From: Acidobacteriota bacterium
GTDB taxonomy: Bacteria > Acidobacteriota > Thermoanaerobaculia > UBA5066
Direction: 5' to 3'
Length of the DNA stretch: 64,000 nucleotides
Assembly: GCA_029781975.1 (NCBI GenBank)
Contig: JAKOVQ010000007.1
Span: 1-64,000 of the forward strand
Below the pieces are notes generated by a model. The model had not been told where the DNA came from and searched no databases. It worked only from the letters and a program-made list of their open reading frames with translations. Both the position numbers and the translations under genes were made by a program. Below are positions 1 to 23,020 of this stretch, piece after piece. Each line of letters starts with the position of its first letter. Within the stretch, counting starts at the first letter, position 1.

Positions 1-1
1 G

Positions 2-313
2 AGGCTCGGGATCCTGACCGAGGCGACGGTGAGGATCTCGGCCCTGCCGGAGGCCGAGGAGTTCCACGGGGTCTTCCTCCCCGACCTCCCGTCGGCCCTC
101 GACGCGACGCGCGAGCTCGCGCAGGCGCGGCTGCCGCTCTCGATGGTCCGGCTCGCGACGCCGGACGAGACGAGGACGACGCTCCTCCTCGCGGGGCACG
201 ACCGTCTGCCTCGCCGTCGCGCAGAATCAAACTTCCTATCCTTCGTCATTCAGAGTGCCCCGGCGGAATGGAACGGCGGCCTCCTCGTGAGCGGCGTAAA
301 CTGCCTTCAATGA
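2..313 (+). pseudogene. FAD-linked oxidase C-terminal fragment, 3' truncated
   Basis: The frame is open from base 2, so the 5' part lies outside the window. The first ~65 residues (LGILTEATVRISALPEAEEF, then ATPDETRTTLLLAGHDRL) match the start of the C-terminal substrate domain of FAD-linked oxidases of the alkyl-dihydroxyacetonephosphate synthase/glycolate oxidase group. After AGHDRL, near base 205, the protein turns into unrelated sequence and stops, where the family normally continues for about 150-200 residues. I infer a gene broken by a rearrangement at about 205, the left edge of the accessory region. Whether the N-terminal FAD domain is intact cannot be seen. Confidence 0.6.
297..302 (+). 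promoter_or_regulatory. -10-like hexamer TAAACT, leaderless arrangement
   Basis: TAAACT ends 7 nt before the ATG at 310 and there is no Shine-Dalgarno between them. The same geometry recurs at many genes in this window. No good -35 is visible. Confidence 0.4.
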
Positions 314-1719: not shown

Positions 1720-2304
1720 TCAGGGGGCGAAGTCGGCGATCGCCCGGTCCAGCTCGGAGAGGAGGTCCTTCCCGCGATGGAGCCCGCGCGCTCCGATCGT
1801 CGCGAGCGCCGTGCGCGCGGTCTCGTGGTCGGCGGTCGTCGACTCGGCAAGGAGCGACCGGAGGTCCTCGGCGTCCCGGGGTCGCAGACGGTCGTCGCGG
1901 GCGAGGACCTTGAGGGCGAGGAGGTGTCCGAGCGTCGCCACGGGGACGACGAGACCAGGAAGGACCTCGATCCGTTCGGCGGCCTCGGCGACTTCCGTCT
2001 CGATGCCGGAGGAAGCGAAGAGGAGGTCGACGACGACCCCGCGGGATCGGCGCTCGAGGGGTGGACGAAGACGGGCGGTAGCGAGGCGTTCGGCGGCGTT
2101 CTGCTCCACGGCGGCGGTGACGTCCCAGCCCGAGGCGGAGAGCGCGAAGACGAGGCGTTCCCCCGCGGCGTCGTCAGGGACGGAGACCGCGACGTCGACG
2201 TCCCGTGTCGTCCGGGGCTCGGCGTGGGCCGCGACGGCCGCGAGCTCGAGGGCGAGCCGCAGACGTGCGGCGGGGGAGTCGGGCTCGAGGCCGGCGCCTG
2301 GCAC
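1720..2304 (-). CDS. AbiEii-like nucleotidyltransferase-fold protein
   Basis: A 194-residue protein with the polymerase-beta nucleotidyltransferase metal site D35-x-D37 (RTTRDVDVAV). A later GHLLALKVLARDD segment around residues 146-158 resembles the third catalytic region of the AbiEii/DUF1814-type group. The usual glycine pair before the aspartates is replaced by AAVAAHAE, which may weaken catalysis. The GTG start at 2304 is chosen because TAGAAT ends 6 nt upstream with no ribosome-binding site. It is oriented against the similar gene at 504, with the IS91 remnant between them. No partner gene is visible, so its role in defence, resistance or antitoxin function is open. Confidence 0.7.
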   Translation of the reverse strand: MPGAGLEPDSPAARLRLALELAAVAAHAEPRTTRDVDVAVSVPDDAAGERLVFALSASGWDVTAAVEQNAAERLATARLRPPLERRSRGVVVDLLFASSGIETEVAEAAERIEVLPGLVVPVATLGHLLALKVLARDDRLRPRDAEDLRSLLAESTTADHETARTALATIGARGLHRGKDLLSELDRAIADFAP

Positions 2305-2310
2305 GGGGCG

Positions 2311-2316
2311 ATTCTA
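2311..2316 (-). promoter_or_regulatory. -10-like hexamer TAGAAT, leaderless arrangement
   Basis: On the minus strand TAGAAT ends 6 nt before the GTG at 2304; no Shine-Dalgarno and no -35 match. Confidence 0.45.
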
Positions 2317-2373
2317 CGGGCCCCGAAGACGCTCCCGCCCGCCTGAGCGGAAGGCCCCGGGGGAACCCGGTTG

Positions 2374-2427
2374 GGGCTCGCCCGGATGCTCTTCGTCTCC
2401 CACGACCGGACCTTCCTCCGCGGCCTC
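2374..2427 (+). pseudogene. ABC-F ATPase fragment (H-loop)
   Basis: The frame encodes LARMLFVSHDRTFLRGL, the H-loop region of an ABC-F (Uup/EttA-like) ATPase, after which homology ends abruptly. Walker B and the D-loop, which should lie between LARM and LFVSHDR, are missing. The same junction is present in the copy at 8702-8830. The rest of 2305-2558 contains nothing else I can assign. Confidence 0.6.
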
Positions 2428-2558
2428 TGCACTTCCGGCAAGGCCAGGCATGCTGCCGAGCTCGCCGCTGCCTTGCGGGACGAGGCGGTCGTCGACGTCG
2501 CTTGCGAGCCTTCTTCGTCCCGTCTTCAGGCATCGCCGATTCACATCGACGATTCCGC

Positions 2559-2587
2559 TTGCCGCATCGACCTCACGGTGCTACAAT
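2559..2587 (+). promoter_or_regulatory. Sigma70-like promoter upstream of the magnesium block
   Basis: TTGCCG (2559-2564), a 17-nt spacer, and TACAAT (2582-2587). It stands out in this GC-rich setting and precedes a strong Shine-Dalgarno and a very short ORF. Confidence 0.5.
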
Positions 2588-2618
2588 GCTCCGCCCGAAG
2601 GGGCGAGGAGGCGACCGA

Positions 2619-2663
2619 ATGGACGACGGACCTACTTCGACCGGCTCGAGAGAGCGGAGATAG
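2619..2663 (+). CDS. 14-codon ORF behind a near-perfect Shine-Dalgarno
   Basis: GAGGAGG at 2605-2611 lies 7 nt before ATG at 2619, and the reading frame MDDGPTSTGSRERR ends at TAG. It follows the promoter at 2559-2587 and precedes the MgtC-like segment. A neighbouring frame reads YFDRLERAEIDARLG and stops at 2692, so this may be a frameshifted remnant of a longer protein. Alternatively it could be a leader peptide for the genes downstream. Nothing else recognisable lies between 2664 and 2841. Confidence 0.35.
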   Translation: MDDGPTSTGSRERR

Positions 2664-2841
2664 ACGCCAGGCTCGGCCGCCCAGGGTCCTGAAAGCGGCG
2701 TTTCGGCGCGCCTCCCCCTCCTCAGCCGACAGCGCATCGAACAACCAACCGACACGGACGAGCGGGGAGCTCCCACAGGGGCTCGCTCGTTCTCGATGTG
2801 CGTTCCCGTCGAGGTGTCTCGACGGAGACGAGGAGGGGGGA

Positions 2842-3265
2842 ATGCCGCTCTTTCCCGACGACCCGGCTGCTTACGACTTCATCCTCCGTATCGGTGCTGC
2901 ACTCCTCTGCGGGACGCTCGTCGGCGTACATAGGCCGGACAGGGGGCGCCGCGCAGGGCTTCGTACGAACGCTCTCGTCTCCATCCGGCCGCCGTTCTTC
3001 ACGGACCTGTCGACCACCGCTTCCGCGCCGCCCGGCCCGTCGCGCGTCGCCGCGCAGGTCGTGGAAGGCATCGGGTACCCCGGGGCCGGCGCCGTCCCGA
3101 GGCCGGAAGGAATCGTCCAGCGGCTCGCCACCGCCGGAGCCCTCCAGGCCGCCGCCGTGACCAGGACGCCGGCCGGTGCGGGCCTCGTCGGGACCGCGGT
3201 CCTCGCGTCGCTCGCCTTCCTCCTCGTCCGAAAGCCATCCCGTTCCCTCGGACGCCGGATCGATC
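2842..3265 (+). pseudogene. MgtC/SapB-family-like segment, degenerate
   Basis: From ATG 2842 the protein follows the MgtC/SapB pattern. It has a first membrane helix (DFILRIGAALLCGTLVGVHR), the conserved R-x-A-G-L-R-T-N-A-L-V block, then SRVAAQVVEGIGYPGAGAV and a late hydrophobic stretch (TAVLASLAFLLV). Several normally invariant positions have changed: the usual FLGAG reads YPGAG, RGLTTAA reads QRLATAG, and the following tryptophan is glutamine. A stretch between the first two blocks is missing. There is no stop codon: the frame runs on through low-complexity Arg/Pro/Ala sequence (3266-3492) into the beta-barrel-like protein. I read it as a decayed inner-membrane MgtC gene rather than a working fusion. 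MgtC proteins act in magnesium limitation, which fits the neighbouring mgtA. Confidence 0.5.
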
Positions 3266-3492
3266 TCACCGCATCACGGGACGAGGAGAAGCAGCGCTCC
3301 GACCTGACGGGCCGCGCGGGAGCGGGTCCGTCCGTCGCCGAAGGTGCCGATGCTCTCCCCCCTTCGTCCCGCGGTCGGGCAGAGCTCCCGAGAATGATCC
3401 ACGCGGTCACACCGAGGGCCCCGAGGCGTTCGACGGAGCCTCGGCACGAAAGCGGTGCGCCGGAGCTGCGCCGGGCAAGCCGCGTCGCTCCC

Positions 3493-4308
3493 ATGCCCGT
3501 GCGACCGTCCCGCGCCGAATGGCGCGCTCACGCACGCCGGACGAACCGTGCAGCGGACCTCGCTCCCGCCTCGAAGGGCGAGACCCTGCGCATCACCTGC
3601 CTCCGGGGTCCGTGCCGGCTCGTCGCAGCGCTTCCGCCGCTGCTGTCGATCCTGGCCGCCAGGCCCGCGACCGCCGCGCGGCCGATGATCACCGACGACG
3701 CCCGCACCGTCGATGCCAAGACCTGCCAGGTCGAGGCCTGGGCCAGGGGCAGCCGGAGCAGCACCGAGTACTGGGTGCTGCCGGCCTGCGCCTTCATCGA
3801 CGCCCTGGAGCTGACCGTGGGCGGAGCCCGCACGCGCGGGGCCGGCGGCAGCACGACCACCGACGTGGTGGTGCAAGGGAAGACGGTCTTCAAGCCCCTC
3901 GAGACCAACGGATGGGGCATCGGGCTGGCCGTCGGCATGGACCGGCACTCGCAGGCCGGTTCCTCCACGCCGGACTGGTACGCCTACGTGCCGGTCACCT
4001 TCTCGCTCCGCGACGACGCCTTCGCCCTCCACGCGAACCTCGGCTGGCTGCGCGAGGGCCACACGGGTCACGACCGCCTGACGTGGGGCCTGGGCACCGA
4101 GGCCAGGCTCACGGAGCGCACGGGGCTGGTCGCCGAGATCTTCGGCGACGACCGGGGCGTCCCTCACCACCAGCTCGGCCTTCGCCACTGGCTGGCGCCG
4201 GGTCGCCTTCAGATCGATGCGACCTGCGGCGGCCGCACGGGAGGCGGCAGTCGGGAACGATGGTTTTCCCTCGGCCTGCGGCTGCTGTCCGCGCGGCTCC
4301 TGCCGTGA
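3493..4308 (+). CDS. Exported beta-barrel-like protein paired with the Mg2+ ATPase
   Basis: The conserved part begins after a hydrophobic signal-like stretch (RLVAALPPLLSILAARPATA) with ARPMITDDARTVDAKTCQVE. It continues as short alternating strands (ALELTVGGARTRG, GWGIGLAVGMDRHS, FALHANLGWLREG, LTWGLGTEARLTE) and ends in RERWFSLGLRLLSARLLP. This looks like an outer-membrane barrel of the kind found as conserved hypotheticals in proteobacteria, though the resemblance is from memory. The start is uncertain: ATG 3493 is the nearest in-frame ATG, but CTG 3586, eight bases after a GAAGGG motif, would place the signal peptide right at the N-terminus. It lies 111 nt before mgtA on the same strand, so a role linked to cation uptake is likely but inferred. 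Confidence 0.6.
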   Translation: MPVRPSRAEWRAHARRTNRAADLAPASKGETLRITCLRGPCRLVAALPPLLSILAARPATAARPMITDDARTVDAKTCQVEAWARGSRSSTEYWVLPACAFIDALELTVGGARTRGAGGSTTTDVVVQGKTVFKPLETNGWGIGLAVGMDRHSQAGSSTPDWYAYVPVTFSLRDDAFALHANLGWLREGHTGHDRLTWGLGTEARLTERTGLVAEIFGDDRGVPHHQLGLRHWLAPGRLQIDATCGGRTGGGSRERWFSLGLRLLSARLLP

Positions 4309-4419
4309 CGGGAAGCAGCAACGGGACGCTCACGAACGCTGACGAGCCCTGATCCGAAAACGCCCGCCCGACCCCGCTCGCAAGCGCGGGAAGCCGGCGG
4401 GCCACGCCGGAGGACCCCG

Positions 4420-7185
4420 ATGAACCTCACATTCCTGAAGGAGCTCTTCGCGAGCTTCGTCCGCACGCACGGTTTCGGCCGCCACTTCCGCCGGCTTCTC
4501 CTGCTCGACAGCCTCTCCCGGACGACGGTCAGCCGCGAGCTGCCGGCCGAGCTGGGGGACACGCTGGCCGCTGCCGCGAGCGCCGATGCCGAGGCGGTCC
4601 TCGCGCAGCTCGGCAGCCGCCTCGGCGGCCTCAGCCAGGAGCAGGCCGAATCCATCCGCGCCCGCGTGGGCCTGAACGAGGTCGAGCACGAGAAGCCGCT
4701 CCCGTGGTGGATACACCTCTGGATCTCCTACCGTAACCCCTTCAACCTCCTGCTGACGCTCCTGGCGGCCATCTCCTGGCTGACCGACGACCTCAAGGCC
4801 ACGACGGTCATCGGCTCGATGGTGGTGCTCTCCACGCTCCTTCGCTTCTGGCAGGAAGCCAAGGCCAACGAGGCCGCTGACGGCCTGAGGGCGATGGTCA
4901 CGACGACCGCGACGGTGATGCGCCCGAACCCGTCCGAGGACCCCGCCGCGGTACCCGAGGGGCGCAACGGCATGCTCCCGCACGTGAACCCGGCCCGCCG
5001 CGTGGAGCTGCCGATCCGGCTCCTGGTGCCCGGCGACGTGGTCCTCCTCTCGGCGGGCGACATGGTCCCGGCCGACTGCCGCGTGCTCGCCGCCAAGGAC
5101 CTGTTCGTGTCGCAGGCGGCGATGACCGGCGAGTCGATGCCGGTCGAGAAGTTCGCCGGTCGGCGCACGATTCCGGCCGCCGGCCCGCTCGAGCTGGACA
5201 ACGTCGTCTTCATGGGCACCAACGTCGTCTCCGGCTCGGCCACGGCCGCCGTGCTCGTCACCGGCAACGCCACCTACTTCGGGGCGCTCGCCTCGCGAGT
5301 CACCGCCGCCGACCGCGCACCGACCTCCTTCCAGGCCGGCGTGAACAGGGTGAGCTGGCTCCTGATCCGCTTCATGCTCGTGATGGCGCCGCTCGTCCTC
5401 CTCATCAACGGCGTCACCAAGGGCGACTGGATGGAGGCGCTGCTGTTCGCTCTCTCCATCGCCGTCGGATTGACGCCCGAGATGCTGCCCATGATCGTCA
5501 CCTCGACGCTCGCCAAGGGGGCGGTGGTCATGTCGCGGCGAAAGGTCATCGTCAAGCGCCTGGACGCCATCCAGAACTTCGGCGCCATGGACGTGCTGTG
5601 CACCGACAAGACCGGCACGCTCACCCAGGACAGGATCTTCCTGTCACGCCACGTCGACGTCTGGGGCGAGGAGTCGGACGAGGTGCTGGCGATGGCGTAC
5701 CTCAACAGCTACTACCAGACGGGGCTGAAGAACCTCCTGGACGTCGCGGTCCTCGATCACGTCGAGGTGCATCAGGAGCTCAACCCCGCACGCAACTACC
5801 GCAAGGTCGACGAGATCCCGTTCGACTTCCAGCGCCGCCGCATGTCGGTGGTGGTGTCCGAGCGCGAGGACCACCACGAGCTGATCTGCAAGGGGGCGGT
5901 GGAGGAGGTGCTATCCGTCTGTGCGCGGGTGCGCCATGGCGCCGCGACCGAGCCGCTGACGCCCGGGCTGCTCGCGCGCATTCGCGCCGTCACCGCCGAG
6001 CTGAACGAGGAGGGTCTCCGCGTCGTCGCGGTGGCCATGAAGGAGGTGCCGCCGCGCGAGGAGCCCTACGGCGTCGCCGACGAGCTGGAGCTGACGCTCA
6101 TCGGCTACGTCGCCTTCCTCGATCCGCCCAAGGAGTCGACGGCGCCGGCCATCGAGGCTCTGGCCGAGCACGGCGTCGCCGTCAAGGTGCTGACCGGCGA
6201 CAACGAGCGGGTGACGGCCAAGATCTGCCGCGAGGTGGGCCTTCAGCAGCGGGGCGTGCTGCTCGGCAGCCGCATCGAGCGCATGAGCGACCGGGAGCTG
6301 GCCGAGGAGGTCGAGCGCCACGACGTGTTCGCCCGCCTCACGCCCACGCAGAAGGAGCGCATCGTGCGCGTGCTGAGGTCCAACGGGCACGTGGTCGGCT
6401 TCATGGGCGACGGCATCAACGACGCGCCGGCCCTCCGCACGGCCGACATCGGCATCTCCGTCGACACGGCGGTGGACATCGCCAAGGAGGCGGCCGACAT
6501 CATCCTGCTGGAGAAGAGCCTGATGGTGCTCGAGGAAGGGGTTCTCGAAGGCCGCCGCACCTTCGCCAACATGCTCAAGTACATCAAGATGACGGCCAGC
6601 TCGAACTTCGGCAACATGTTCTCGGTCCTGGTCGCCTCGGCCTTCATCCCCTTCCTGCCGATGCTGCCGATGCAGCTGCTGGTGCTCAACCTGCTCTACG
6701 ACATCTCCCAGATCGCGATTCCGTTCGACCGCGTGGACGACGAGCTGGTGCGCAGGCCGCAGAGGTGGAACCCCGGCGAGATCGGCCGCTTCATGGTCTA
6801 TTTCGGGCCGGTGAGCTCGATCTTCGACATCACGACCTTCGTCATGATGTGGTTCGTCTTCGGCGCCGGCTCTCCCGACCGGCAGACGCTCTTCCAGTCG
6901 GGATGGTTCATCGAGAGCCTGATGACGCAGACGCTGGTCGTGCACATGATCCGCACGCAGAAGGTCCCCTTCCTGGAGAGCCGGCCCGGCACGCCTTTGC
7001 TCGTCACCACGGTTCTGATCATGGCCGTCGGCGTCTTTCTTCCAATGGGGCCGCTGGCGCACTACTTCAAGCTGCAAGCGCTGCCGGTCCTGTTCTTCCC
7101 GCTGCTGGCGGTGACGCTGCTCGGCTACATGGCGCTGACGCAGCTGATGAAGAGCCACTACCGGGGCCGCTACGGATGGCAGTGA
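4420..7185 (+). CDS. mgtA: Magnesium-translocating P-type ATPase
   Basis: A 921-residue P3B-type ATPase, the usual length for MgtA/MgtB. The actuator TGES motif is in QAAMTGESMPVEKF, the phosphorylation site is D396 in CTDKTGTLT, the nucleotide-binding KGA is in LICKGAVEEVL, and the hinge is TGDN...GDGINDAP. The last third carries the C-terminal transmembrane helices. It imports Mg2+ across the inner membrane using ATP. A GGAGGA Shine-Dalgarno sits just before the ATG. In other bacteria MgtA is expressed under low Mg2+; no leader riboswitch is evident in the 111-nt gap. It forms a block with the MgtC-like segment and the barrel-like protein, and this block lies between two ABC-F pieces, suggesting acquisition by transfer. 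Confidence 0.95.
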   Translation: MNLTFLKELFASFVRTHGFGRHFRRLLLLDSLSRTTVSRELPAELGDTLAAAASADAEAVLAQLGSRLGGLSQEQAESIRARVGLNEVEHEKPLPWWIHLWISYRNPFNLLLTLLAAISWLTDDLKATTVIGSMVVLSTLLRFWQEAKANEAADGLRAMVTTTATVMRPNPSEDPAAVPEGRNGMLPHVNPARRVELPIRLLVPGDVVLLSAGDMVPADCRVLAAKDLFVSQAAMTGESMPVEKFAGRRTIPAAGPLELDNVVFMGTNVVSGSATAAVLVTGNATYFGALASRVTAADRAPTSFQAGVNRVSWLLIRFMLVMAPLVLLINGVTKGDWMEALLFALSIAVGLTPEMLPMIVTSTLAKGAVVMSRRKVIVKRLDAIQNFGAMDVLCTDKTGTLTQDRIFLSRHVDVWGEESDEVLAMAYLNSYYQTGLKNLLDVAVLDHVEVHQELNPARNYRKVDEIPFDFQRRRMSVVVSEREDHHELICKGAVEEVLSVCARVRHGAATEPLTPGLLARIRAVTAELNEEGLRVVAVAMKEVPPREEPYGVADELELTLIGYVAFLDPPKESTAPAIEALAEHGVAVKVLTGDNERVTAKICREVGLQQRGVLLGSRIERMSDRELAEEVERHDVFARLTPTQKERIVRVLRSNGHVVGFMGDGINDAPALRTADIGISVDTAVDIAKEAADIILLEKSLMVLEEGVLEGRRTFANMLKYIKMTASSNFGNMFSVLVASAFIPFLPMLPMQLLVLNLLYDISQIAIPFDRVDDELVRRPQRWNPGEIGRFMVYFGPVSSIFDITTFVMMWFVFGAGSPDRQTLFQSGWFIESLMTQTLVVHMIRTQKVPFLESRPGTPLLVTTVLIMAVGVFLPMGPLAHYFKLQALPVLFFPLLAVTLLGYMALTQLMKSHYRGRYGWQ

Positions 7186-7260
7186 GCCGTCGGCCTCTGA
7201 CAGGCGCGGCAATTTCGCTCGGCTGCCGCCCGATCGGCACGACCTCACGGCCTCTCGGGG

Positions 7261-7382
7261 TTCGGCGAGCGGGTCCTCGAGATCGGGGGCGAGGACGGCA
7301 CCGGGAAGCCGGTCTCCACGGCGGCACCTACGAGGAGTACGTGGCCCGCTCGGGTCACGAGGCGCCGGGCGTCCATGCGTAG
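7261..7382 (+). pseudogene. ABC-F ATPase C-terminal fragment, frameshifted
   Basis: One frame reads RVLEIGGEDGTGKPV (7270-7314) and the next reads HGGTYEEYVARSGHEAPGVH up to TAG at 7382. Together these resemble the stretch after the H-loop of ABC-F ATPases (a V-x-E-I-G-G segment followed by a G-T-Y-E-E-Y segment), broken by one frameshift. This piece would directly follow the H-loop fragment at 2374-2427 if the 4.8 kb between them were removed. The rest of 7186-7558 shows no gene, only the dispersed repeat at 7446. Confidence 0.5.
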
Positions 7383-7445
7383 CAGGCCCACCCGCGCGCG
7401 AAGGCCTCGAAAGCCGCGGCCCCGACCATCTCGCCGCCTCGAGCG

Positions 7446-7511
7446 CCACACGGTCTGGCCTCGTCTCCACCACGAGCCGGCAGACAGAGGCTCCCCTCGC
7501 TCTCCTCGTCG
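7446..7511 (+). repeat. Dispersed ~67-bp intergenic repeat, copy A
   Basis: Begins CCACACGGTC, then CCTCGTCTCCACC and CCGGCAG. By eye it is roughly three-quarters to four-fifths identical to 12022-12088. Both copies lie in noncoding stretches upstream of plus-strand genes. Confidence 0.45.
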
Positions 7512-7558
7512 ACCTCTCCCTCCGAGGTCCGGGCCTCGACGCCGCTGAACGAAGGCCA

Positions 7559-7596
7559 TTGACGCCGCGGAACGGACTCTCTACATTTATGTAGAG
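7559..7596 (+). promoter_or_regulatory. Promoter with overlapping palindromic operator of the RHH-GNAT operon
   Basis: TTGACG (7559-7564), a 17-nt spacer, TACATT (7582-7587). A perfect 8-bp inverted repeat, CTCTACAT-TT-ATGTAGAG (7579-7596), covers the -10 box and runs up to the Shine-Dalgarno-like AGAGG. This is where a ribbon-helix-helix antitoxin is expected to bind and repress its own operon. Confidence 0.75.
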
Positions 7597-7604
7597 GCGA
7601 CGCC

Positions 7605-7880
7605 ATGTCCACCGTTCAGATCTCCGCCCACATCTCTCAGACGACGAATCACGAGCTCGAGCGCTTCGCCGATGCGCGTGGCCTCAAGAAGGGCTTCGTC
7701 ATCGAGGACGCGATCCTTCACCACCTCCAGGCCCTCCGCGAGGTGCCTGAGGACGTCATCGTCCCTGTCCGGCTCGTTGTCAGCCCGGCCTCTCTGGCAA
7801 AGGTCGTCGAGCGTATCGAGCGACCTCGTCGACCGACAGCCGCGATGCGAAAGCTGATGAAGGGGAGCTCCCGAGGCTGA
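7605..7880 (+). CDS. Ribbon-helix-helix antitoxin
   Basis: A 91-residue protein whose first half fits an RHH DNA-binding domain: a strand (STVQISAHIS) followed by two helices (NHELERFADARGLKKGFVIE and DAILHHLQALREV). The C-terminal half (about 50-91) would wrap the toxin, ending in a basic, helical RRPTAAMRKLMKG. It is followed after 12 nt by a GNAT acetyltransferase, the standard order of TacA-TacT/AtaR-AtaT type II toxin-antitoxin systems. The antitoxin should neutralise the toxin and, with it, repress the promoter at 7559-7596. Start chosen at the first ATG after the operator, with AGAGG 7 nt upstream. Confidence 0.8.
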   Translation: MSTVQISAHISQTTNHELERFADARGLKKGFVIEDAILHHLQALREVPEDVIVPVRLVVSPASLAKVVERIERPRRPTAAMRKLMKGSSRG

Positions 7881-7892
7881 CGAGCCGTGGCG

Positions 7893-8417
7893 ATGTTCAT
7901 TCGGTCTCTGGCACCGGGGGACGACCGGTCGGCCTTTCGCTCCGGGAACATCGACCTTGACCGGTTCTTCCAGCGTTTCGCCGGCCAGAATCAGTTCCGC
8001 CACTACGTCGGTGTGACGTACGTTGCGGTGGACGGCGAGTCGATCCTGGGATTCGTGACTGTCACGGCTGCCTCCATCGAGGTGTCGAGCCTGTCTCCCC
8101 AGGCGCGGAAGAGGCTCCCGGTCTACCCGGTCCCGGTCCTGCGTCTCGCACGCCTCGCGGTGGGCGAGGCGGTGCAGGGCCAGGGGATTGGCTCGTCCCT
8201 GCTGCGCCACGTCTTTTCTCTCGCCCACGAGATGGCCAGCCGCATCGGGTGCGTCGGAGTCATCGTCGATGCAAAGGAGGCGGCCGTGCCGTTCTACGAG
8301 CGATATGGCTTCGAGGCGCTCGATGTCGAAGCCGGTCGCCTCGGCGACCGGCCGGTGCCGACGCCCATGTTCCTGGAGATAGGCGCGATCCCGAGGCCCA
8401 GGAAGGCGAGCCCGTAA
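7893..8417 (+). CDS. GNAT-family acetyltransferase toxin (TacT/AtaT-like)
   Basis: A 174-residue GNAT protein. The N-terminal block FIRSLAPGDDRSAF..GNIDLDRFF..GQNQFRH is characteristic of toxin-type GNATs. The acetyl-CoA pyrophosphate loop is Q95-G-Q-G-I-G100, and the likely catalytic tyrosine is Y135 in PFYERYGF. Characterised members acetylate the amino group of aminoacyl-tRNA and block translation. The antitoxin gene lies immediately upstream. GTG at 7887 is an alternative start adding two residues; ATG 7893 matches family N-termini better. Both genes look intact, unlike the other toxin loci in this window. Confidence 0.8.
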   Translation: MFIRSLAPGDDRSAFRSGNIDLDRFFQRFAGQNQFRHYVGVTYVAVDGESILGFVTVTAASIEVSSLSPQARKRLPVYPVPVLRLARLAVGEAVQGQGIGSSLLRHVFSLAHEMASRIGCVGVIVDAKEAAVPFYERYGFEALDVEAGRLGDRPVPTPMFLEIGAIPRPRKASP

Positions 8418-8701
8418 GGGCCGGGGAGCCCCGGGAGGGACCTACTCCTCAACGCCGGGACGTGGTCGCTTCGCCGCCGATCTGCCTGGCCGGAATTCGT
8501 CGACGAGGTCCGGCCATCGTCAGAACCCGTACGTCATCGCGGCGACGCTGACACCGGAGTCTCAGGCGAGGGGGAGCGCCGTCTTCCCGGGTCCGAGCGT
8601 CCCCGCGGCACGGGAGCGGTCGAGCGCGAGGGAAACCGACAGGTCGAGCTCCCCCGCCGCCGCAAGGTGGTGAGGTTCGACTGTCGCAGCCCCCGCGGTC
8701 G

Positions 8702-8830
8702 GGCGACGACGTCGCGGGCCTCTCCGGCGGCGAGAAGTCGCGCCTCGTCCTCGCCCAGATTCTCTTCGTCTCCCACGACCGGACCTTCCTTCGCGGCCTC
8801 GCATGCCGCAGCCTCGACGGCGGAGGTCAC
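8702..8830 (+). pseudogene. ABC-F ATPase fragment (signature plus H-loop, Walker B deleted)
   Basis: The frame reads GDDVAGLSGGEKSRLVLAQ, then ILFVSHDRTFLRGL. These are the ABC signature LSGGE and the H-loop of an ABC-F protein, joined without the roughly 35 residues that should carry Walker B and the D-loop. The junction matches the fragment at 2374-2427. The frame then ends in unrelated sequence at the convergent TonB receptor gene. The rest of 8418-8840 holds no gene I can support. Confidence 0.6.
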
Positions 8831-8840
8831 CCCCCTTTCG

Positions 8841-11869: not shown

Positions 11870-12021
11870 CGGGGTGGAAGGAGGATAGGCCGCCGGAACC
11901 GGCCCTTCAAGGCGCATGCCCGGAACGCACCCCGTCCGGACGCGGACGTCCTCCAGGTTCCGGCCCGCGTCAGCCGCCGCTTCCTCCACCAGTTTGCCGC
12001 CCCCGGCGATCCGCCGCAGGC

Positions 12022-12088
12022 CCACACGGTCGAGCCTCGTCTCCACCGCGACCCGGCAGGCCGACGCTCGCCTCACCCTCCTCGAGAA
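12022..12088 (+). repeat. Dispersed ~67-bp intergenic repeat, copy B
   Basis: Shares CCACACGGTC, CCTCGTCTCCACC and CCGGCAG in the same order and spacing with the copy at 7446-7511. The interval 11870-12248 carries only this repeat and the hairpin that follows. Confidence 0.45.
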
Positions 12089-12125
12089 CGGACCCCGGGA
12101 GGCCCCCGGCGCTCCCTGAGCGTGC

Positions 12126-12166
12126 GCGCCCGGGAGCGGCGCCGCCGCGGTGCCGCCCCCGGGCGC
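12126..12166. terminator. GC-rich hairpin upstream of the DUF2059 gene
   Basis: Arms 12126-12140 and 12152-12166 pair over 15 bp with one mismatch, around an 11-nt loop. There is no U-tract, so it may be a structured repeat end or regulatory hairpin and not a classical terminator. Confidence 0.35.
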
Positions 12167-12248
12167 CGTTCGAGCCCGCGCGGCCCTGCAGACACTCGCG
12201 GTGTAGCATCGACGCAAAGCCGAACGGACCCGGAGAGCGAGGATCGAA

Positions 12249-21337: not shown

Positions 21338-23020
21338 CTACCCCGTCGTCAGCTTCCGGTACTTGATCCGGTGGGGCATGTCGGCGGCGGCGCCGAGGCG
21401 CTTGTGGCGGTCGGCCTCGTACTCCTGGTAGTTCCCCTCGTACCAGACCGTCTTCGAGTCCCCCTCGAAGGCGAGGATGTGCGTGGCGACGCGGTCGAGG
21501 AACCAGCGGTCGTGCGAGATGACGACGGCGCAGCCGGCGAAGCCGAGGAGCGCCTCCTCGAGGGCCCGCAGCGTGTCGACGTCGAGGTCGTTCGTCGGCT
21601 CGTCGAGGAGGAGGAGGTTCCCCCCCACCTTCAGCGTCCGCGCGAGGTGGAGGCGGTTCATCTCGCCGCCCGAGAGGTCGCCGATCCGCTTCTGCTGGTC
21701 GGCCCCCTTGAAGTTGAACATCGAGCACCAGGCCCGGCTGTTGAGCTCGCGCTTGCCGACGAGGATCTTCTCCTCGCCCCCCGAGACCTCCTCCCACACC
21801 GACTTCTTCGGGTCGGGGCGGTCGCGGTTCTGGTCGACGTACGAGGGGACGACGGTCTCCCCCACCTTCAGGACGCCGCCGTCCGGCGTCTCGAGCCCCA
21901 TGATCATCTTGAAGAGGGTCGTCTTGCCGGCGCCGTTGGCGCCGATGACGCCGACGATCCCTCCCTTCGGAAGGTCGAACGAGAGGTCGTCGAAGAGGAG
22001 GCGGTCGCCGTAGCCCTTCCTGACGCTCTCGGCCCGCACGACGACGTCGCCCAGACGCGGGCCGGCGGGGATGTAGATCTCGTTCGTCTCGCCGCGCGCC
22101 TCGGGGCCGCTCTCGGCGAGGAGCTGCTCGTAGGCCTGGAGGCGCGCCTTCCCCTTGGCGTGGCGCGCGCGGGGCGACATCTTCACCCACTCGAGCTCGC
22201 GCTGGAGGGTCTTCTGCTTGGCGCTCTCGGCCTTCTCCTCCTGCGCCAGGCGCGTCTGCTTCTGGTCGAGCCACGACGTGTAGTTCCCCTTCCAGGGGAT
22301 GCCGGAGCCGCGGTCGAGCTCGAGGATCCACTGCGCCACGTTGTCGAGGAAGTAGCGGTCGTGCGTCACGGCGACGACGGTCCCGGGGTACTCGGCGAGG
22401 TGGTGCTCGAGCCACGCGACTGACTCGGCGTCGAGGTGGTTCGTCGGCTCGTCGAGGAGGAGGAGGTCGGGGCGCTCGAGGAGGACCCGGCAGAGGGCCA
22501 CGCGGCGCCGCTCGCCGCCCGAGACCTTCGTGACGTCGGCGTCGGGGGGCGGGCAGCGGAGGGCGTCCATCGCCGTCTCGAGCGTCCGGTCGAGGTCCCA
22601 GCCGTTCGCGGCCTCGATGGCGTCCTGGACCTTCCCGTACTCCGCCATCACCTTCTCCATCTCGTCGTCGCGAAGGCTCTCGCCCATCTTCTCGCCCAGC
22701 TCGTCGAACCGCGCGAGGAGCTTCTTCACCGGGGCGACGGCCGCCTCGACGTTCTGGAGGACGTTCTTGGCCGGGTCGAGCCACGGGTCCTGCGCGAGGA
22801 AGCCGACGCGCGTCCCCTCTGCGGCGAACGCCTCTCCGTTGAACTCCTTGTCCAGCCCCGCCATGATCTTCAGGAGCGACGACTTCCCCGCCCCGTTCAG
22901 CCCCAGGACGCCGATCTTGGCGCCGGGGAAGAAGGCGAGGTAGATCCCCTTCAGGATCTCGCGCTGCGGCGGGACGACCTTCCTCAGGTTGACCATCGTG
23001 TAGATGTATTGCGGTGCCAT
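21338..23020 (-). CDS. ettA: Energy-dependent translational throttle protein EttA (ABC-F)
   Basis: A 560-residue ABC-F ATPase, the normal EttA length. It starts MAPQYIYTMVNLRKVVPPQR as EttA proteins do. It has two ABC domains with Walker A GLNGAGKSS and GANGAGKTT, signatures VSGGERRR and LSGGEMNR, Walker B LLLLDEPTNHLD and LLLLDEPTNDLD, and H-loops THDRYFLD and SHDRWFLD. The linker carries the EttA-type arm (ESAKQKTLQRELEWVKMSPR). It binds the ribosomal E site and gates the first peptide bond according to ADP/ATP. It is intact and clearly distinct from the ABC-F debris at 2.4-8.8 kb. Confidence 0.95.
   Translation of the reverse strand: MAPQYIYTMVNLRKVVPPQREILKGIYLAFFPGAKIGVLGLNGAGKSSLLKIMAGLDKEFNGEAFAAEGTRVGFLAQDPWLDPAKNVLQNVEAAVAPVKKLLARFDELGEKMGESLRDDEMEKVMAEYGKVQDAIEAANGWDLDRTLETAMDALRCPPPDADVTKVSGGERRRVALCRVLLERPDLLLLDEPTNHLDAESVAWLEHHLAEYPGTVVAVTHDRYFLDNVAQWILELDRGSGIPWKGNYTSWLDQKQTRLAQEEKAESAKQKTLQRELEWVKMSPRARHAKGKARLQAYEQLLAESGPEARGETNEIYIPAGPRLGDVVVRAESVRKGYGDRLLFDDLSFDLPKGGIVGVIGANGAGKTTLFKMIMGLETPDGGVLKVGETVVPSYVDQNRDRPDPKKSVWEEVSGGEEKILVGKRELNSRAWCSMFNFKGADQQKRIGDLSGGEMNRLHLARTLKVGGNLLLLDEPTNDLDVDTLRALEEALLGFAGCAVVISHDRWFLDRVATHILAFEGDSKTVWYEGNYQEYEADRHKRLGAAADMPHRIKYRKLTTG

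Follow-up and report, generated by a model that had tools for sequence, protein, structure and literature searches.

Does the magnesium-transport block near the start of this contig interrupt a working ABC-F gene? The window (the whole stretch of DNA analysed, 64,000 nucleotides from an Acidobacteriota bacterium) carries the two ABC-F pieces that a sequence-only reading of it had claimed, with their common strand and their order as given there. They enclose a 4.8-kb block that encodes, besides a full-length MgtA (921 aa, TIGR01524 1321 bits), a barrel-like protein and an MgtC-like segment, and both pieces match one parent gene (43/43 bp for piece A, 92% for piece B). The tempting reading that mgtA split a working translation factor nevertheless has to be corrected, as the pieces, together with a third, are broken leftover ABC-F copies, ordinary genome debris rather than a split working gene. 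We put at roughly 70% the probability that these relics are additional copies of the chromosomal ABC-F gene's 3′ end, copied locally via an IS91-like element and then decayed, with a foreign cassette now lying between pieces A and B. The earlier reading had missed the third decayed copy (piece C, 8640-8822), a 108-bp deletion in piece A and the intact ABC-F gene elsewhere, which is found on contig C22 of the same genome. The ABC-F features of the window are as follows.

2377..2427, + strand: ABC-F piece A, 100% identical over 43 bp to C22:4460-4502(-)
7270..7426, + strand: ABC-F piece B, the C-terminal end and first 3′ flank, frameshifted; 92% over 158 bp to the C22 gene
8640..8822, + strand: ABC-F piece C, a third copy, scrambled and missing three internal stretches, each bounded by short direct repeats
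21413..22990, - strand: intact EttA-type ABC-F gene, an in-window paralogue unrelated to the pieces

The parent gene (G000:C22:4340-5974(-), 544 aa) is intact, with two ABC_tran domains and an ABC_tran_Xtn linker, and passes the ABC-F domain test, which asks for two ABC ATPase domains and that linker within a single open frame; the window pieces, which represent the C-terminal end only, fail it. Among solved structures it is nearest to YheS and YbiT, and not to the Uup type proposed earlier, although the motifs pointed out then (FVSHDRTFLRGL and TYEEYVARSGHEAPGV) are present in it. Set against this YheS/YbiT-like gene, pieces A, B and C retain 86-100% DNA identity but are truncated, deleted and frameshifted, and are not working ABC-F genes. 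In local comparison with the parent, E values were 8e-17 for piece A and 3e-61 for piece B; derivation of A and B from different ABC-F paralogues was ruled out, as both match the one C22 gene, whereas their match to the EttA-type gene is far worse. This ABC-F gene is present in 14 of the 14 genomes of the family, and pieces B and C are closer to their own genome's gene than to the orthologue in the nearest relative, L031 (92% against 88% for piece B; 87-96% against 81-96%, lower in most parts, for piece C), which indicates that the copies postdate the split from L031. In another relative, overlapping ABC-F parts with differing identities lie at the ends of contigs G001:C212 and G001:C132, and may represent a second copy or a strain mixture.

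C22 and the window contig (C47) share an 81-bp end, and the other end of C22, together with contig C15, gives an intact FAD-linked oxidase gene, which leaves the start of C22 for joining to C47. On this join, drawn from overlaps and gene integrity, the intact ABC-F gene is probably found on the same strand, some 4.3-5.9 kb before the first base of the window (negative coordinates below are on the joined C22-C47 sequence). The ends of C22, C47 and C15 share a 321-bp repeat, as might be expected if the fragments were an assembly or binning artefact of chimeric contigs; however, pieces A, B and C and mgtA all lie inside one 121-kb contig, away from the contig end, and the 5-14% divergence between copies is not what misassembly of a single gene would produce, making this explanation very improbable.

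All three pieces bear the marks of ordinary decay, with deletions in A and C and a frameshift in B identifying them as pseudogene relics. Piece A (translation LARMLFVSHDRTFLRGL) lacks 108 bp between 11-bp direct repeats (GATGCTCTTCG), a deletion that removes the Walker-B/D-loop segment and recurs, with an identical junction, as the second deletion of piece C. Piece C itself consists of four colinear parts of the parent gene at 86-96% DNA identity, its deletions sitting exactly between the direct repeats CCTCTCCGGCG, GATGCTCTTCG and GGCCTCGC in parent-gene coordinates. Piece B reads RVLEIGGEDG in one frame and, after a 1-nt deletion, GTYEEYVARSGHEAPGVHA up to a stop in another; a leftward extension to 7238, offered by a lenient BLAST alignment, was no better than shuffled sequence (p about 0.3), and the start of piece B was therefore set at 7270.

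Closing the gap, from which a near-continuous C-terminus had been expected, does bring the breakpoints close together: the last homologous base of piece A (-4378) and the first of piece B (-4371) leave a 6-nt gap on the parent. Abutment within 7 nt would arise by chance with a probability of 1-5% under a simple uniform-breakpoint model, which argues against the alternative that A and B derive from separate relic copies and that the arrival of the mgt cassette between them broke no single ABC-F copy. That alternative nonetheless draws on several observations: A and C have their deletion junction in common, their right ends are nearly equal (-4378 and -4376) with a GCATGC motif next in both, and at least three ABC-F relic pieces lie within 6.5 kb. 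The common deletion, however, uses one of the longest direct repeats there and could have recurred. As piece A is equally like piece C and a joined A-B copy, there is room for A and B to be parts of different copies, an account that we regard as a genuine contender without favouring it, and we see the descent of A and B from one relic copy, split by the block, as an evenly balanced proposition.

Whether the block could have entered such a copy as a unit depends on its composition; its features, and a gene pair beyond piece B, are these.

2842..3309, + strand: MgtC-like segment (PF02308 E 1e-16; NCBIfam profile positions 8-148 of 231)
3598..4308, + strand: barrel-like protein of the mgtA cassette, 68% aa to the hypothetical protein encoded ahead of mgtA on plasmid pSM0227-07
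3652..7181, + strand: barrel-mgtA cassette, horizontally acquired, 77.9% DNA identity over 3534 bp to pSM0227-07
4420..7185, + strand: mgtA, magnesium-translocating P-type ATPase, intact, 921 aa (TIGR01524); 79.7% aa to LC623903.1
7605..8417, + strand: toxin-antitoxin-like pair between B and C, with a RelB-like antitoxin (7605-7880) and a GNAT acetyltransferase (7887-8417)

The encoded MgtA passes the TIGR01524 equivalog test over residues 44-921, well above the cut-off of 610.75 bits, and the cassette carrying it is foreign: its DNA identity to the IncP-1beta plasmid pSM0227-07 (LC623903.1) is far above that of any acidobacterial relative searched (149 genomes of the class gave at best 69% over 2.1 kb, with 71% over short stretches), and hence we consider it horizontally acquired. 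Strong full-length MgtA matches occurred in only 5 of the 41 genomes searched, this one included; in the 14 family genomes, full-length MgtA homologues were confined to this genome and a distant one in G008. Among the relatives compared, which include no other member of the genus, none has an A-B copy lacking the block. The codon-usage comparison that had been suggested as a check put mgtA, at 0.068, moderately apart from four genes of the region presumed to be core (0.020-0.036), which is weak evidence of foreignness beside the plasmid match. At four relative loci, mgtA was beside neither ABC-F of the same kind nor IS91 sequence, with a distant ABC ATPase at one of them.

The mgt region of pSM0227-07 has been described as 'Tn402 with mgtAC' (PMC9499019), and the matching mgtA region adjoins tni genes. 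Plasmid and window have in common a barrel gene followed by mgtA, but the plasmid has an MgtC gene after mgtA and flanking tni genes, whereas the window has neither and carries an unrelated MgtC-like segment upstream instead. This segment, truncated relative to the 231-position MgtC model, matches the MgtC of the plasmid at 43% aa identity and sits on the opposite side of mgtA; the block is thus composite, and not the single magnesium-transport unit it had been taken for. No Tn402 25-bp terminal inverted repeats were present in the window at up to 3 mismatches, no tni genes were recognized between A and B in the list of open reading frames, plasmid matches for 2300-3660 and 7187-8840 were short and partial, and a search for known RNA motifs found none. 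As the block borders yielded no element terminus, transposon ends, target duplication, recombinase or Tn402 inverted repeat, insertion into a single A-B copy is something that we infer. The toxin-antitoxin-like pair was so named from a weak NF048017 match and Pfam GNAT matches, and two AbiEii-like nucleotidyltransferase genes (PF08843) lie on opposite strands beside the relics, at 504-1022 and 1720-2304.

The proposal that the block was inserted into an ABC-F gene therefore survives in part. The same parent, strand and order of A and B, their near-abutting ends and a foreign mgtA are all in keeping with it, but the working gene is intact and the target would have been an extra, deletion-bearing copy. 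In its full form, with the 4.8-kb block entering as one unit and splitting the working gene, it is hardly credible: the intact copy on C22 excludes the splitting of a working ABC-F gene, piece A had lost its 108 bp including the Walker-B region, the frameshift in piece B is independent of any insertion, and the MgtC-like segment and barrel-mgtA come from different sources.

How the extra copies arose is suggested by what lies around them. Within the ~16 kb that hold the ABC-F pieces, one IS91/ISCR-like rolling-circle element has left at least five remnants (numbered 1 to 5), the first being just after the intact ABC-F gene and the second also on C22; the window contains the remainder, together with a gene fragment at its left end.

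1..201, + strand: internal fragment of a FAD-linked oxidase gene, part of 321 bp; identical to C15:1-201, overlaps both C22 ends and continues upstream into C22
199..243, + strand: 45-bp repeat that includes an oriIS-like end (AATCAAACTTCCTATCC, 225-241); an identical copy ends element copy 2 on C22
1100..1709, + strand: transposase remnant 3, with a degenerate oriIS-like end at 1693-1709; ~87-89% DNA identity to copy 2
7434..7507, + strand: remnant 4, a 3′ tail of the element that immediately follows piece B; 82% match to the copy 2 tail
11996..12178, + strand: remnant 5, a 3′ tail of the element with its hairpin; 84% match over 183 bp to the copy 2 tail

Copy 2, the largest, encodes 288 aa of a Y2_Tnp transposase (PF04986 1.3e-26) without its N-terminal part (profile positions from 130 of 356), and scores 94.9 bits against the IS91 model NF033538, under the cut-off of 125, as a truncated copy; Y2_Tnp is also detected in the window at 1098-1913 (E 5.5e-12). 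The oriIS-like end of copy 2 lies 229 bp after the transposase stop, and copies 1 and 3 have a motif resembling it. The remnants thereby combine a Y2_Tnp domain with an oriIS 3′ of the transposase, as belongs to the IS91/ISCR group; in ISCR27, oriIS is GCGGTTGAACTTCCTATACC, 236 bp after the stop (PMC8894482). A complete IS91 element with HUH transposase and terIS was not found, all copies at the locus being truncated and terIS not identified. Elsewhere in the genome, the element tail and PF04986 subfamily gave only one 45-bp partial match, on contig C2, and the sole other PF04986 match, on contig C12, had no DNA similarity to the locus. An element remnant also lies 3′ of the ABC-F gene in the relatives L031/G004 and G009, and about nine short fragments of the same IS91-like transposase are scattered over several contigs of G001.

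We therefore propose, on the positions and states of these remnants, that an IS91/ISCR-like element just 3′ of the ABC-F gene probably copied the 3′ end of that gene locally, either through one-ended transposition running past the element end into ABC-F or through duplication between element copies; that the copies then decayed via deletions between short direct repeats; and that the barrel-mgtA cassette, kin to the Tn402-borne one on the IncP-1 plasmid, probably entered a dead copy that served as a harmless landing site. One-ended transposition moving adjacent DNA has been documented in the IS91 family for IS801 (PMC6354349), and the ABC-F 3′-end copies beside element tails are consistent with it, as they are with duplication between element copies. 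We lean towards the element as the copying agent; because its most complete copy is truncated, another copy may have supplied the transposase. Plain tandem segmental duplication, in which repeats cross over unequally, the copies decay and the IS91 remnants are mere passengers, would also yield local copies, the kept relative order of ABC-F and IS91 parts in piece B plus tail 4, and decay via short direct repeats, but only the last part of ABC-F recurs (no more than ~790 bp, and a shorter stretch in A and B), always the 3′ side and near IS91 remnants, and the upstream genes are not duplicated; we judge it rather unlikely.

The FAD-linked oxidase fragment offers a second case of host DNA beside the element. 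Its 321 bp are 100% identical to the intact gene and are flanked by two identical 45-bp oriIS ends (window 1-243 plus C22 1-246), which looks like a recent gene-fragment capture, misassembly being the alternative. The 45-bp repeats were also considered as a target duplication, a candidate rejected since the same motif ends element copies 1 and 3 and is thus the element's own end.

If the link to IS91 is true, the locus preserves, on a small scale and in an acidobacterial genome, the natural traces of three processes: rolling-circle elements copied the ends of neighbouring genes, the copies decayed through short direct repeats, and a magnesium-uptake cassette of plasmid type settled in the debris. 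The oxidase fragment, with an oriIS end on either side, would then be a rare and clean example of an IS91 relative capturing part of a gene. Although every copy here is truncated and the flanks of the oriIS-like ends hold no clear GAAC/CAAG tetramers, unlike ISCR27 and IS801, the locus resembles those elements in its Y2_Tnp domain, an oriIS-like end ~230 bp past the transposase stop, a hairpin tail and fragments of flanking genes nearby. Helitrons are eukaryotic relatives of IS91. A Helitron-like capture of internal host-gene fragments by the IS91-like element, in which successive aberrant rounds of rolling-circle transposition yielded the ABC-F pieces and the FAD-linked oxidase fragment and foreign cassettes, mgtA among them, landed at the locus afterwards, seems doubtful to us; ours is a bacterial case that we infer from remnants alone, but it has in common with Helitron capture the presence of host-gene fragments beside the ends of a rolling-circle element.
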